Of a stretch of DNA of 37,048 bases, positions 11,734-21,794 are shown one piece after another (position 1 is the stretch's first letter; each line of letters opens with the position of its first letter). Source of the DNA: Deltaproteobacteria bacterium (GTDB taxonomy: Bacteria > Desulfobacterota > Desulfuromonadia > Desulfuromonadales > Geopsychrobacteraceae); assembly GCA_024276935.1 (NCBI GenBank), contig JAJRWH010000034.1, positions 1 to 37,048 of the forward strand, written 5' to 3'. The notes under the pieces were generated by a model, which made no database searches, was not told the DNA's origin, and worked only from the letters and a program-made list of their open reading frames with translations. A program made the position numbers and the translations under genes.

Positions 11734-13268
11734 TGCTCGACTCGATGATGAATGGCATGATGAACGGAATCAGTACCACGTTGATTCCGATCAATATACT
11801 GATGGTCCTGTTCGGCTGCTTTATGGGCAGCCTGATTGGCATGCTGCCCGGTCTCGGTCCGATTACTGCGGTCGCGCTGATGATTCCGGTGACCTACGGG
11901 CTCGATCCCGCGACCGGCATGGTCCTTCTTTCCGGGGTCTATTACGGGGCGATCTTCGGTGGCTCGACCTCGTCTATTCTGATCAACGCACCTGGCGAAG
12001 CTGCCACCGTGGCGACTGCCCTTGACGGCTACCCTCTGGCGCGCCAGGGTTATCCGGGCAAGGCGCTGGCAATTGCGGCCTATTCCTCATTCTCAGGTGG
12101 CACCATTGCCGTCGTGATGATGATGTTCTTTGCGCCGATGCTGGCCAGTGTGGCCACCAGTTTTCAGTCGGCGGACTATTTTGCTCTGATGATTCTCGGG
12201 TTGACGGCGGTTTCGGCCTTTGCCGGTCGCGGCGGGGTACTCAAGGCCTTGCTGATGGTGGTGCTCGGGCTGATGCTGGCGACGGTCGGAACCGATCAGA
12301 CTTCAGGAATTCAGCGTTTTACCTTCGGTTCGCTTGAGTTGCTCGATGGCATTGAGTTTCTGCTGCTGGCGATGGCGACATTCGCCCTGACCGAAGCCCT
12401 GATGATTATCCTCAAGCGGGATGAATCCTCTGACAGTCTCAAGCCCAAGATGATCGGTTTCAAAAGCCTCAAGGTCACAAAAGAGGAGTTCAAATTTATT
12501 GCGCCGACCATTGCACGATCGTCGATTCTTGGTTTTTTTATCGGTGTGCTTCCCGGGGCTGGTGCCACCCTCGGTTCGTTCATGTCCTACGGGATGGAGC
12601 GCAACCTGGCGCCACCGGAGGAACAGAAGAAGTTTGGCAAGGGCAGTCTGCGTGGTCTGGCTGCACCCGAAACGGGAAACAATGCCGCCAGTTCAGGATC
12701 TTTCGTGCCCCTGCTCTGTCTGGGGATTCCGGGCTCCGGCACCACCGCGGTTATGCTCGGCGCTCTGATCGCTTACGGCATCGAACCTGGCCCACGGATG
12801 TTTATTGACAGTCCCGAAGTTTTCTGGGGCGTCATCATGTCAATGTATCTTGGCAACGTCTTTTTGCTGGTCCTGAACCTGCCGCTGATTCCCTATTTTG
12901 CCAGGCTGTTGGCCATTCCGCGCAACCTGATGGTGCCGATGATCCTCTTTTTCTCCTTAATGGGAGTCTATCTGGTCACCTTCAATGATTTCGATATCAT
13001 GATGATGGTGTTTATCTGCGTAGCGGCGATGGGGTTGCGTTTGATGAATATGCCGATGGCTCCGTTGCTGCTCGGCTTTATTCTCGGTGGCCTGATGGAG
13101 GACAACCTGCGCCGTGCTCTGTTGATCTATGATGACTCGATCGCGTTCATGTGGCAGCGCCCCCTGACTCTCGGGATCAATCTGGCGACAATCATTATTC
13201 TGCTGCTTCCGTTGTTGCGTGCTTTCTTTGCTCGTCGTAAGAAGGCCGTGTCTGTTACGCAGGGTTGA
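11733..13268 (+). CDS. tctA: TctA-type large permease subunit
   Basis: A 511-residue permease with 11-12 hydrophobic segments. The two TctA signature regions are clear: GMLPGLGPITAVALMIPVTY followed by YYGAIFGGSTSSILINAPGE near the N-terminus, and the matching second-half GVLPGAGATLGSFMSYGME with AAPETGNNAASSG and GIPGSGTTAVMLGAL. TctA forms the translocation channel, driving uptake of tricarboxylates or similar acids by an ion gradient, fed by TctC. It is the last gene of the operon and is followed by a terminator at 13322-13376. The substrate is unknown; citrate is the family prototype. Confidence 0.95.
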   Translation: MLDSMMNGMMNGISTTLIPINILMVLFGCFMGSLIGMLPGLGPITAVALMIPVTYGLDPATGMVLLSGVYYGAIFGGSTSSILINAPGEAATVATALDGYPLARQGYPGKALAIAAYSSFSGGTIAVVMMMFFAPMLASVATSFQSADYFALMILGLTAVSAFAGRGGVLKALLMVVLGLMLATVGTDQTSGIQRFTFGSLELLDGIEFLLLAMATFALTEALMIILKRDESSDSLKPKMIGFKSLKVTKEEFKFIAPTIARSSILGFFIGVLPGAGATLGSFMSYGMERNLAPPEEQKKFGKGSLRGLAAPETGNNAASSGSFVPLLCLGIPGSGTTAVMLGALIAYGIEPGPRMFIDSPEVFWGVIMSMYLGNVFLLVLNLPLIPYFARLLAIPRNLMVPMILFFSLMGVYLVTFNDFDIMMMVFICVAAMGLRLMNMPMAPLLLGFILGGLMEDNLRRALLIYDDSIAFMWQRPLTLGINLATIIILLLPLLRAFFARRKKAVSVTQG

Positions 13269-17528: not shown

Positions 17529-19733
17529 ATGAAGATTTTTGCCAAACTTATTGGTGGCTTTGCCGTTGTGGCCGCCGTCTGTGCCCTGGTTGGTGGCCTT
17601 GGCTGGTATGGGATTTACCATACCCGCGAGGGGCTGAGTGACATTGCTGATACTCGGATGCCTGCCGTTGAAGGACTGGGGCTGATGATGGCGGGCCTTA
17701 ACGGGCTCAAATCGGCAGAGCGAACCATGATGATTTCAAGTCTGACTTCCGCTGACAGGCGTCATGAAGTCAAGAACCTCAGTAAAAGAATGAAGATTCT
17801 GGATGATGGCTTTGCCGAGTATGACCGGTTGGCAAAGGATACAAAAGAGAAACAGTTGTGGGGTGAGGTCAGGCAGGCACTTGATCTGTGGAAGAGTGAG
17901 CATCATAAGCTGGTCGAGCATGTGAAAAAGATCGGTCTGGATGATATCGGTTCTCTTGAGGCGGTGCTGGTTGGGCGTAAGCTTGATCATGTCCGTTGGG
18001 TGAGTGAACTTGAGAAGTCGGTTGTCCGCAGTGAAAAATTTACTGGTCAACTTGATCCCAAGCTTTGTGGCCTTGGCAAGTGGTTAGCCAAGTATACGAC
18101 CGATGATAAGCAATTTGTCGCCCTGCTCAAAAGTTTTTCCGGCCCGCATCAACGCCTGCATCAGCTGGGAGAAACCATCAACAGTAAAATTGCAGAAGGA
18201 GATTATGCTGCTGCCGGAGTGCTGGTCACTTCCAAAGTCAAGCCGACCTTGGTTGAAATTGAAGGATTGTTCGATAAGGCGCTGACTTATGTCAAAGCTG
18301 ATCTGGACGACCTTGCCGCTGCCAAGACGATTGGATTTGGCAGTGAAAGACATGCGTTCAGCGCAGCGATGAAGGCTTTGAATAAACTGGTTGAGTATAA
18401 CGTTGAATTGACCTCCCAGGTGACCCACGAGACTGAAGCCAGTGCCAGCCGCAGCCAGACCCTGTCGTTTGTCGCAGTTCTGTTCGGGGTTATCGCCGCT
18501 CTGGTGATTGGCTATTTGATGGCGCGCAGTTTTTCCGTGCCAATGCGCCGAACTGTCAGCGTCCTTAAAGAGTTTGAAATGGGGCACCTGAATACCCGGC
18601 TGAATTTAAAGCGCAAAGATGAAATTGGCGAGATGGCCGACACCCTTGATGCCTTTGCCGATAATCTGCAAAAAGAAACGGTGGCAATTCTTAAAGGATT
18701 GGCTGCCGGAGATGTCAGTTATACGATAGAACCGCGTGATGCCCATGATGAGATCCGCAGTTCATTGAAAACCCTGGGTGAGGATTTGAATCAGGCACTG
18801 ACCCTGATTCAAAACTCAGGTGAACAGATTAATTCAGGGGCATCACAGGTTTCAGAAGGGGCTCAGCTGCTTTCAGAAGGGGCCACCCAATCTGCGGCGT
18901 CTCTCGAAGAAATTACCAGTTCAATGGGAGAGCTTTCGAGCCGGACTCGTGACAATGCCGACAATGCCCAGCAGGCCAATCAGCTATCGACTGAAGCAAT
19001 GGAAGCAGCCCAAAAAGGAAGTGCACAGATGCAGCAGATGGTCGCGGCCATGGATGATATCCGTGAGTCAGGACAATCGATCAGCAAGATCATCAAGGTC
19101 ATCGACGAAATTGCATTTCAGACCAATCTGTTGGCACTCAATGCAGCGGTAGAAGCAGCCAGAGCCGGACAACACGGGAAGGGTTTTGCCGTAGTAGCAG
19201 AAGAGGTTCGTAATCTGGCCGCACGCAGCGCAAAAGCTGCCCAGGAAACGGCTGAGTTGATCGAGGGTTCGGTGCAGAAGACCGATAACGGGGCCAGCAT
19301 TGCCCGGGAAACTGCGGAAGCACTTGAAGAAATTGTGGCGGGAATCACCAAAACCAGTGATCTGGTTGAAGAAATCTCAGCGGCCAGTAATGAGCAGGCT
19401 CAAGGAATCGGTCAGATCAATCAGGGTCTTGAGCAGATTGATCAGGTGACGCAGGCCAATACTGCCAGTGCAGAAGAAAGTGCAGCAGCTGCTGAACAGT
19501 TGTCAAGTCAGGCTATGGAATTGCGCCGGTTGTTGCAACAGTTCAAGTTACGCAACGCAACCACGACAATTGCCAGGGCTCCTGCGACCGCACCGGACAA
19601 GATCGCCTGGAGTGCCCCGGAAGCAGGAGCAGGCTGGCAGGCGAGTGAAGAGCAGCTTGCGGCGCAATCAGCGCAGGCTGATGACTCATCGCCACAAATT
19701 GCCCTCGATGATAGCGAGTTCGGCAAATATTGA
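17529..19733 (+). CDS. Methyl-accepting chemotaxis protein with tandem HAMP domains
   Basis: A 734-residue transmembrane chemoreceptor. TM1 is at about 7-30, the periplasmic helical sensor at about 31-310, TM2 at about 312-335, a first HAMP at about 335-385 ([22 protein letters not shown]), a second HAMP-like unit at about 388-432 ([18 protein letters not shown]), and the cytoplasmic coiled-coil signalling domain to about 690. The hairpin tip [20 protein letters not shown] is conserved, so coupling to CheA/CheW is expected. The C-terminal tail is low-complexity, Ala/Gln-rich and lacks a CheR-tethering pentapeptide. The sensor region is mostly helical and gives no ligand clue. GGAGGAGG stands just before the ATG. 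No che gene is nearby. Confidence 0.93.
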
Positions 19734-19790
19734 AAATGACACTCTCTTTATAAATTCGTCAGGTTTTATTTCTGACTCTTGAGTTGTTCT

Positions 19791-19832
19791 CTCCGGCAGA
19801 CTAGACTGGGGTTTTGTCTGCCGGAGTTTTTT
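19791..19832 (+). terminator. Terminator hairpin that contains the sfsA Shine-Dalgarno sequence
   Basis: CTCCGGCAGAC (19791-19801) pairs perfectly with GTCTGCCGGAG (19816-19826) across a 14-base loop, followed by six T bases that end right at the sfsA ATG (19833). It is a textbook terminator for the chemoreceptor transcript, yet the 3' arm carries the only Shine-Dalgarno-like GGAG for sfsA. A transcript reading through would have its start site sequestered. Confidence 0.85.
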
Positions 19833-20525
19833 ATGCAACTACCAGCCCCATTATTTGCAGGCAGGCTGCTGCGACGTTACAAGCGATTTTTGGCCGACGT
19901 AGAACTCGACGATGGCCAGGTTGTTACCGCCCATACCCCCAATACCGGGAGCATGCTGCAATGTGCGGTCCCCGGCTATCCCGTTTTGATTTCTGCAACA
20001 GACAATCCCAAACGTAAGCTCAAATATACTCTCGAGTTGATTCAGGTGGGGCAAGACTGGGTTGATACGCATACGCAAAGAGCAAACCATCTGGTTGCAG
20101 AGGCCCTGGATAATGGCTGGATCAAAGAGTTCTGTGGTTATCAGGTGCAACGAGAATATCGTTTCGGTGCCAGTCGGATCGACTTTCATCTGGAGAAGAT
20201 GGCACAACAGGTTTTGCTTGAGGTGAAAAACGTAACTTTATGCGATCACCAGATTGCCCGTTTTCCTGATGCGGTGACGAGCCGGGGCCAAAAACATCTT
20301 CATGAACTTCAGGTGGCTGTGCAACAGGGGTATCGCGGGGTGATCTTCTTTCTGGTTCAGCGTTCTGAAGCGACCGGTTTTCGTCCTGCCGATGAAATAG
20401 ATCCTGTTTATGGAGAGGTTTTACGCAAGGTGGTTGCTGCCGGAGTTGAGCCACTGGCGTATAAAACCGCAACATCCCCGCAAGAGAATCGGATTGCTGA
20501 AGCAATACCGGTCCTGCTTGACTAA
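19833..20525 (+). CDS. sfsA: SfsA family DNA/RNA nuclease-like protein
   Basis: A 230-residue protein of the SfsA family, first known as a sugar fermentation stimulation protein and now viewed as a nucleic-acid-binding, PD-(D/E)XK-like fold. HTPNTGSM near residue 36, the YTLELIQVG strand, the core motif EYRFGASRIDFHL and LLEVKNVTL (the E-x-K-type motif), then FPDAVTSRGQKHLHEL and VIFFLVQR, are all conserved. The start at 19833 matches the usual N-terminus and length (E. coli 234). A longer frame begins 54 bases upstream, inside the terminator hairpin, and is unlikely. It is co-transcribed with tmcAL nine bases downstream. Biological role unsettled. Confidence 0.93.
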   Translation: MQLPAPLFAGRLLRRYKRFLADVELDDGQVVTAHTPNTGSMLQCAVPGYPVLISATDNPKRKLKYTLELIQVGQDWVDTHTQRANHLVAEALDNGWIKEFCGYQVQREYRFGASRIDFHLEKMAQQVLLEVKNVTLCDHQIARFPDAVTSRGQKHLHELQVAVQQGYRGVIFFLVQRSEATGFRPADEIDPVYGEVLRKVVAAGVEPLAYKTATSPQENRIAEAIPVLLD

Positions 20526-20534
20526 GGCTTGCTT

Positions 20535-21794
20535 ATGCGCGCAGTGGGGTTGGTTACTGAGTACAATCCGTTTCATAATGGCCATCTGTATCACCTTCAG
20601 CAAAGCCGTCGGCTTGCTGATGCCGAGGTTACCGTGGCGGTAATGAGTGGTCATTTTTTGCAACGTGGTGAAGCCGCTCTTTGTGATAAATGGCGGCGTA
20701 CCGAAATGGCACTGGCCGCCGGGGTCGATCTGGTTATTGAGCTTCCCTACATCTTTGCCTGTAACAGTGCTCCGTATTTCGCACGTGGGGCGATTCTTTG
20801 CCTTGACGCTCTGGGAGGGATCGACAGCCTTTGTTTTGGGAGTGAGCTGGGGGATCTTGCCCCTTTGCAGCGCTATGCTGACCTGCTGAATCAACACAAC
20901 GCGACCATCCTGGCGCAGACACAACAACTTTTGCGGCGTGGGGTTGTTTATCCCGTGGCGCGTGCAGAAATCATGCGGGGTTTAAGCCCCGATGTTGACC
21001 TTACCGAGACCCTGTCAGCCCCGAACAATATTCTTGGGATCGAATATCTGCGAGCATTGGCACAAACCGGTTCAGCAATCAGGGCATTGACAATTCAGCG
21101 TCAGGGACCTGGTTATCACGATCTGGAAGGGCAGGGGGCTATTTCCAGTGCTACCGGGATTCGTCGAAAACTGAAGCAGCATGAAAATGTTGCGCTGTAT
21201 CTGCCGGCAGCAGTTGGAGATCTCCTTCAGACTGTCCTTGATGAAGCGGTGATTCCTGATGATGACCATCATCTGCGGCTTTTGCTGGCAAGAATTCTGC
21301 GCGGTGCGGATACGTTGATCCGGCTTTATCAGGTTGAATCGGGGCAGGAAAATCGGTTGTTTGATGCTGCGGGGAAAGCAACGACCCTGGGTGAACTGAT
21401 TGAAAATATCAAGGCTCGCCAATTGACCAGAACCCGGGTTCAGCGCATGCTCTGTCATGTCCTGAATGATGTCGATGCGGAGGTGGCCAGTCAGCAACTG
21501 GATCGGGGGCCTTCATATCTGCATCTGTTGGGCAGTTCAGAAAAGGGAGAGAAGTTTCTGGCGGCAACCCGTAAAGAACGCCGTTTACCTCTGGTTGGCA
21601 ATTATTCGCGGATCCACAATCAATTGCAGAGATTCTACGGTCAGGGAAGTAACGAATTGCTTCTGGCTCAACACCAGCTGCAAATGGAACTGCGCAGCAG
21701 TGACAATTACGCTCTGTTGCAAAAAGGGTTCTCTGCCCGGAGACAGCGGGATTATTTTGAACCGGTAAGAAGGGTGGGTCTCAGGGAAGATTGA
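20535..21794 (+). CDS. tmcAL: tRNA(Met) cytidine acetate ligase
   Basis: A 419-residue nucleotidyltransferase-like enzyme of the TmcAL (YlbM) family. Using ATP and acetate it makes N4-acetylcytidine at the wobble position of elongator tRNA-Met. The N-terminal adenylation motif VGLVTEYNPFHNGHLYHL carries the HxGH signature, followed by VMSGHFLQRGEAALCDKWRR, ELPYIFACNSAPYFA and LCFGSE. Later come GPGYHD and SATGIRR, with a helical C-terminal half. The length is close to the B. subtilis protein (415). The ATG at 20535 begins at the conserved residues; an in-frame TTG six bases before is an alternative. It lies nine bases after sfsA, in the same operon. Confidence 0.93.
   Translation: MRAVGLVTEYNPFHNGHLYHLQQSRRLADAEVTVAVMSGHFLQRGEAALCDKWRRTEMALAAGVDLVIELPYIFACNSAPYFARGAILCLDALGGIDSLCFGSELGDLAPLQRYADLLNQHNATILAQTQQLLRRGVVYPVARAEIMRGLSPDVDLTETLSAPNNILGIEYLRALAQTGSAIRALTIQRQGPGYHDLEGQGAISSATGIRRKLKQHENVALYLPAAVGDLLQTVLDEAVIPDDDHHLRLLLARILRGADTLIRLYQVESGQENRLFDAAGKATTLGELIENIKARQLTRTRVQRMLCHVLNDVDAEVASQQLDRGPSYLHLLGSSEKGEKFLAATRKERRLPLVGNYSRIHNQLQRFYGQGSNELLLAQHQLQMELRSSDNYALLQKGFSARRQRDYFEPVRRVGLRED

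Follow-up and report, generated by a model that had tools for sequence, protein, structure and literature searches.

Background

How can a gene be expressed when a terminator-like hairpin adjoins its start codon and contains its ribosome binding site? This question is raised by sfsA in a genome of the Geopsychrobacteraceae, from which we analyzed a stretch of 37,048 nucleotides (hereafter, the window). Three genes follow one another on its forward strand: a chemoreceptor gene that precedes the hairpin (17529-19733; an ORF with the Pfam domains 4HB_MCP, HAMP, MCPsignal and CZB), sfsA (19833-20525; SfsA_N and SfsA, PF03749/PF17746), and a HIGH_NTase1 gene (20535-21794; PF05636) that is likely to be cotranscribed with sfsA. 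For the last of these the family evidence is HIGH_NTase1, and the name tmcAL is that of the initial annotation.

Several systems are known in which a stem-loop acts upon the expression signals of the gene that follows it. In Escherichia coli the frd terminator overlaps the ampC attenuator, so that the terminator of one operon lies over the expression signals of the next; the ampC transcript, made from a promoter further up, is attenuated by this hairpin. In riboswitch expression platforms, one terminator stem may both terminate transcription and cover the Shine-Dalgarno sequence. IS10/Tn10 is also protected from outside transcription. Two stem-loops have been described for IS200, one that stops transcription impinging from outside and another that hides the ribosome binding site (PMC3196728). 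In bacteriophage T4, the ribosome binding sites of gene e and I-TevI are described as lying in a hairpin formed only by the longer RNA initiated upstream, and a late promoter located just upstream of the ribosome binding site gives rise to a translated RNA without the 5' strand; arrangements of this kind are stated for I-TevII, I-TevIII, segB and Aeh1 mobE, and helices at the ribosome binding site also for soc and 49 (PMC3014915, PMC2988022).

Results

The hairpin adjoining sfsA

Direct reading of the region agreed with the initial annotation, which had reported a perfect 11-bp hairpin with six T bases abutting the sfsA ATG and the GGAG of sfsA in its 3' arm. The 5' arm, CTCCGGCAGAC, occupies positions 19791-19801 of the forward strand; the loop, TAGACTGGGGTTTT, has 14 bases (19802-19815) that are partly paired inside, and the 3' arm, GTCTGCCGGAG, extends from 19816 to 19826. 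All 11 pairs of the main stem are Watson-Crick and eight of them are G-C. The Shine-Dalgarno sequence of sfsA, GGAG, is formed by the last four bases of the 3' arm (19823-19826), 6 nt before the ATG (19833-19835), and the T6 tract directly 3' of the stem (19827-19832) is at the same time the terminator tail and the spacer between the Shine-Dalgarno sequence and the ATG. The chemoreceptor stop codon and the hairpin are separated by 57 nt.

The RNA of positions 19740-19860 folds with -36.0 kcal/mol against -22.9 ± 3.0 for shuffled sequences (z -4.4; none of 200 shuffles as stable), and this fold adds a 4-bp inner stem within the hairpin loop. When the 70-nt region upstream of sfsA was shuffled, an equally good hairpin ending at most 10 nt from the start codon appeared in 2 of 2000 cases. 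Given that positions 19791-19832 combine a G+C-rich stem with a T run directly behind it and lie past the end of a gene, the hairpin is predicted to be an intrinsic (Rho-independent) terminator. A simple terminator scanner did not list the hairpin at 19791-19826, probably because it limits loops to 3-8 bases.

A mistaken call of the sfsA start was ruled out by the Pfam match (SfsA_N/SfsA) and by the conserved N-terminus (start, a charged or polar residue, L or I, and P), which is common to most of the relatives shown.

The stem and the tail are those of a typical intrinsic terminator, as would be expected if the hairpin simply served the upstream gene as an ordinary terminator and adjoined sfsA by chance; leaky read-through would then feed sfsA, and the burial of the Shine-Dalgarno sequence would be a side effect. 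The placement of the hairpin speaks against this explanation. A census based on a perfect-stem rule identified 36 terminator-like sites in 320,264 bases of the genome of the window, both strands included, and the sfsA hairpin is the only one that adjoins an ATG opening a long frame; in three of the 36 an ATG, GTG or TTG located 3-19 nt past the stem opens at least 90 codons, these frames being unverified ORFs.

Conservation of the hairpin and of its neighbors in the genus

Nine genomes of the genus were sampled and sfsA is present in seven. Six of these seven have the hairpin with GGAG in the 3' arm and with a T-rich tail that contains a run of 4-7 T, and their ATG lies 6-9 nt past the arm; hence the spacing between the hairpin and the ATG, which the initial annotation had singled out for comparison among relatives, is kept. 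The stem of G006 carries one mismatch. In the remaining member, G004, the 5' arm is kept together with a core of 7 bp, but the T tract and the remainder of the 3' arm are gone. Because the SfsA tree places G004 within the genus, beside G007 (support 88/90, on a branch that is not starred), its state looks like a likely secondary loss of the hairpin. At this locus (L006) an in-frame ATG precedes the aligned start of sfsA by 15 nt, with no clear Shine-Dalgarno sequence seen, and the genome may use a different start for sfsA now that the hairpin is lost.

Changes on both sides of the stem were observed at 4 of the 17 stem pairs of the genus alignment, two of which involve bases of the -10 region of the candidate promoter described below; two of the four are one and the same change, shared by the sisters G000 and G003. 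The covariation score of the stem was matched by 1 of 500 shuffles, and the further pair types present in the stem were no better than those of shuffled alignments (115 of 500). The motif CTCCGGC-N8..34-GCCGGAGWTTT occurs once per genome in five of the nine genomes, solely at sfsA, and G006 misses it by one base; with the motif single-copy and at sfsA in these five, a repeated genomic hairpin family was ruled out.

The gene upstream of sfsA is this chemoreceptor gene in G000, G003, G006 and G007, and its C-terminus is readable in G002. G001 and G004 have an arginase gene in this place: Pfam Arginase was tested for the gene of G001 and for the copy that the window itself carries further upstream, and the gene of G004 was assigned by the likeness of its start. 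Since G001 has the full hairpin with arginase as the upstream gene, the hairpin goes with sfsA and not with the chemoreceptor gene. The initial annotation had placed the terminator after the chemoreceptor gene; the hairpin is not tied to that gene alone. This permanence of the hairpin at sfsA under different upstream genes also argues against an ordinary terminator that came to adjoin sfsA by chance. In the SfsA tree G001 pairs with G002, and G004 with G007, and for this reason, if the tree is right, the chemoreceptor gene was gained or lost more than once.

Outside the genus, the gene upstream of sfsA in 21 of the 26 family members is a divergent acyl-CoA synthetase-like gene (a name that derives from reading the translation), and therefore no terminator is needed there. 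In G004 the synthetase gene is divergent from a two-gene block that includes arginase and precedes sfsA, an order which suggests that the arginase block came to lie between the synthetase gene and sfsA.

A small stem, GTCAG-N9-CTGAC (19758-19776), is folded between the chemoreceptor stop codon and the candidate -35 region. Relatives have small stems at comparable places. An equal stability was reached by 1 of 500 shuffles in the window, 32 of 500 in G007 and 149-248 of 500 in the other five members, and the stem was dropped as a common feature of the genus given that it is clear over shuffles only in the window, and weak in G007.

A candidate sfsA promoter spans the hairpin

Promoter-like sites were searched in the 90 nt upstream of sfsA with a matrix of E. 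coli-like -35 and -10 frequencies, untrained on these sequences. The best -10 lies within the loop of the main stem in all seven genus members. In the window the top site is TTGAGT-17-TAGACT: the predicted -35 (TTGAGT, 19779-19784) is located just upstream of the hairpin, the last 11 bases of the 17-nt spacer (19785-19801) are the 5' arm, and the predicted -10 (TAGACT, 19802-19807) consists of the first six bases of the loop. From the position of this -10, transcription of sfsA-tmcAL would start at about 19814 (19812-19816), that is, 3' of the 5' arm. The hexamers are predicted to be of the sigma70-like type.

For a second matrix, the training set consisted of 25 members of the family from genera other than the hairpin genus, among them G058, which has a possible hairpin of its own; L039 was excluded from the training because its upstream region looked the same as that of L008. 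With this family matrix, the -10 of the best site begins immediately behind the 5' arm in 7 of 7 members, at 25-29 nt from the ATG in six of them and at 39 nt in G004. Among 2000 shuffles, a site as good turned up 4-12 times for G001, G002, G004, G006 and G007, 100 times for G003 and 301 times for the window; four of the seven members share one string, TTGTTT-17-TAGGAT, and hence are not independent. The site of the window matches 8 of the 12 consensus positions, falls below the cut of a simple promoter scanner and is unlisted there. The case for a promoter in the window is thus one of position and kinship and not of its own score, and the weakness of this match, taken alone, is what would be expected if the hairpin were only an ordinary terminator. 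A second -10 (TGTAAT or TGTAAC), also in the loop, competes in G002, G006 and G001, which makes the exact transcription start uncertain.

A rival site further up in the window, TTGAAA-15-TAAATT, which ends 76 nt before the sfsA ATG, scored 6.2 versus 7.7 with the E. coli-like matrix and 0.8 versus 5.4 with the family matrix. When the scan with the E. coli-like matrix was extended to 200 nt, a site 79 nt upstream was preferred in G007 and another at 101 nt was nearly level in G003 (5.7 versus 5.8); under the family matrix neither of them wins or draws level. The initial annotation had stated that sfsA-tmcAL have no room for a promoter of their own after the terminator unless it lies within the loop or upstream, and it counted a start within the loop against its own reading. 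The first part of this statement fails, since the best candidate overlaps the hairpin, and it is one of the exceptions, a -10 in the loop, that the promoter scans favor.

The promoter-like site and the leader in other genera

The E. coli-like scan detected the pattern TTGT..-17/18-TARRAT in other genera, often 26-30 nt before the ATG. Among the 26 family members outside the genus, the family matrix gave a site scoring at least 10 at 26-32 nt before the ATG in 14 and elsewhere in five (at 17, 17, 17, 39 and 56 nt), and no site of this score in seven; given that 25 of the 26 are the training set, this fit is partly by construction. A similar promoter-like site thus occurs at a similar distance from the ATG in genera that mostly lack the hairpin, a result that is at odds with an ordinary terminator as the whole explanation, and GGAG is found 5-9 nt before the sfsA ATG in many relatives without the hairpin. 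We consider it most likely that an older sfsA promoter and its Shine-Dalgarno sequence were overwritten by a terminator. The novelty of the genus would be that the spacer was made complementary to the leader, and that the gap between the Shine-Dalgarno sequence and the ATG was made a T tract. The genera without the hairpin, the hairpin genus and the one likely secondary loss would provide an evolutionary before-and-after of this change.

Other elements were observed upstream of sfsA in these relatives. In L009, L015, L018, L040 and L041 a dyad, GCAAG-N8-CTTGT, possibly an operator, overlaps the -35 region, and several of these loci have further up an element similar to AACTATACGATTATC that resembles, by eye, a -10 region of the opposite strand directed toward the divergent gene. 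Within the last 60 nt before sfsA, three genomes of family f2 (loci L028, L118 and L125) have a different terminator-like hairpin of 12-13 bp followed by 7 T, ending 13-16 nt before the sfsA ATG; there too, little room is left for a promoter after it.

A possible second occurrence in another genus

We ranked 97 regions upstream of sfsA from 96 genomes of the order by the best perfect hairpin ending at most 10 nt from the start codon. In this set L038 and L164 are the same place and some starts are uncertain; the set is without L045, L103-L109 (seven loci) and genomes with partial or poor matches, and six distant loci obtained from a scan of genome contigs (L031-L036) were left out of the comparison. 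The first five places are occupied by members of the hairpin genus (scores of 30-40), the sixth by G058 (29), with a clear drop to the seventh (21); G006 is placed low by a ranking of perfect stems due to its one mismatch.

G058 belongs to another genus, and its 13-bp hairpin (L042, 1444-1500; reached by 3 of 2000 shuffles) covers both signals, with the -10 TAGAAT inside the hairpin and the Shine-Dalgarno sequence in the 3' arm; a co-directional gene is located 99 nt upstream of sfsA. The tail is poor in T (TTATTC), and a fold of 130 nt showed no excess stability over shuffles (z 0.45). Considering these two features, and that 3 in 2000 is not rare among about 90 regions, G058 is a lead to a possible second origin of the arrangement. 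G056, with a gap of 158 nt behind its upstream gene, instead has an inverted repeat of 10 bp, rich in G+C, that lies apart from the promoter-like site and upstream of it.

Accessibility of the ribosome binding site and proposed mechanism

The cost of freeing the Shine-Dalgarno sequence and the ATG was computed for the seven genus members, 8 of the 26 other family members and G058. In the window it amounts to 17.0 kcal/mol in the read-through RNA versus 7.3 in the RNA from the predicted start, the latter being within the range of the eight other family members (2.5-8.1). For the six genus members with an intact hairpin the values were 8.7-20.9 and 2.4-7.3, respectively, as calculated with an accessibility window of 12 nt before the ATG, from which the Shine-Dalgarno sequence of G001, with its GGAG 9 nt before the ATG, is partly outside. 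The difference supports the proposal of the initial annotation that ribosomes would have difficulty in translating read-through RNA. It is also a difficulty for an ordinary terminator whose leakage feeds sfsA, given that the Shine-Dalgarno sequence would be locked in the read-through RNA, and we regard that explanation as distinctly improbable.

We propose instead that the hairpin is probably an intrinsic terminator nested with the sfsA promoter, which would insulate sfsA-tmcAL from the upstream neighbor. This reading draws on features of the sequences themselves: the hairpin with the Shine-Dalgarno sequence in its arm, its conservation and covariation, its independence of the gene that precedes it, and a promoter-like site that occurs both with and without it. 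An RNA polymerase arriving from upstream would transcribe both arms, the hairpin would fold and transcription would stop at the T tract; in any RNA that escapes termination, the ribosome binding site would be locked in the stem. A polymerase starting at the sfsA promoter would transcribe only the 3' arm, so its transcripts would be neither terminated nor hidden from ribosomes: lacking the 5' arm, they would not be acted upon by the hairpin. In these transcripts the 3' arm and the T tract would form a leader of roughly 19 nt that includes the Shine-Dalgarno sequence. The unit would thus insulate sfsA-tmcAL at two levels in about 54 bp, and insulation would be the purpose for which it was selected.

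Attenuation as an alternative

The initial annotation had suggested an attenuator or leaky termination, a reading that did not gain support, since the best-supported promoter spans the hairpin. An attenuator would require a promoter between the chemoreceptor stop codon and the hairpin, and an anti-terminator or a ligand that chooses between termination and read-through. The site TTGAAA-15-TAAATT described above is a weak candidate for such a promoter, and the small stem at 19758-19776 precedes the hairpin. Against this, the 57 nt between the stop codon and the hairpin are not conserved in the genus as judged by eye, the family matrix gives that candidate a low score, and the hairpin is retained in the minimum-energy fold as well as in the centroid, neither of which pairs its arms in another way. 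An Rfam search of positions 19650-19950 yielded no family at the gathering score and no known aptamer or leader family; the one weak match, of the whole anti-hemB model (19756-19834; 17.9 bits, cut-off 49.5; E 0.065), is in all likelihood fortuitous. An attenuator or riboswitch was rejected, since no conserved upstream promoter was seen and no Rfam family reached the cut-off, and we deem it very improbable.

Discussion

If the reading that we prefer is right, it would show that a bacterial chromosome can insulate one gene from the next with hardly any additional DNA, by means of a terminator written into the spacer and the leader of an existing promoter. By analogy, the nearest system in logic is that of T4 gene e and I-TevI, with termination added. 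As in those genes, the Shine-Dalgarno sequence of sfsA sits in a hairpin of the longer RNA. The predicted -10 of sfsA is placed at the start of the loop in all seven genus members, with a weak score in the window. In contrast with them, the sfsA hairpin has a T tract and should terminate transcription, its predicted promoter is sigma70-like and not a phage late promoter, its neighbors are of the chromosomal type, and its likely purpose is insulation and not timing. In IS200 two stem-loops are involved, whereas a single hairpin could do both tasks at sfsA, where, moreover, the promoter is predicted to be inside the hairpin; unlike the elements of IS200 and IS10, it is not found at a transposase gene, the downstream product being SfsA. 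In the absence of a phage late promoter and of a transposase gene, the sfsA unit is not a member of the T4 or the IS200 type. It also differs from frd/ampC, given that the predicted sfsA start lies inside the hairpin, and from riboswitch platforms, in that no known aptamer family is present according to Rfam and that the best promoter candidate overlaps the element instead of preceding it. In our searches of open-licence literature, no description of a promoter nested inside a terminator hairpin was found.

A more extended version, which we consider unlikely, would make the hairpin a one-way gate that serves as terminator, lock of the ribosome binding site, promoter spacer, -10 and leader; it would have evolved at least twice, in the genus and in G058, around an older promoter once a gene was placed upstream, and the terminating polymerase would perhaps be handed to the sfsA promoter for re-initiation. 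Least probable of all is that the main role of the hairpin is a coupling in which the polymerase that terminates at the T tract stays parked over the sfsA promoter, which it would block by interference or from which it would re-initiate after RNA release: the predicted stop point is about 20-30 nt from the -10, and the terminated E. coli polymerase has been described to remain on the DNA, slide and re-initiate at nearby promoters in vitro (PMC6978380), but the same report states that such events have not yet been observed in vivo, and the variation of the upstream gene within the genus speaks against a specific coupling.

For the nested terminator and promoter that we favor, two further implications can be mentioned. 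For annotation, a hairpin over a Shine-Dalgarno sequence need not mean attenuation if a promoter lies in its loop. In addition, the unit would be a natural and compact terminator-promoter part, whose behavior under upstream traffic is directly testable.

Elsewhere in the window, the Rfam search matched the family Cis8_sRNA, of Ruegeria, at positions 12789-12916 of the reverse strand (65.3 bits, cut-off 58). This match is antisense to a tctA gene (Pfam TctA), and it may be that Cis8_sRNA picks up nothing more than the coding sequence of tctA.
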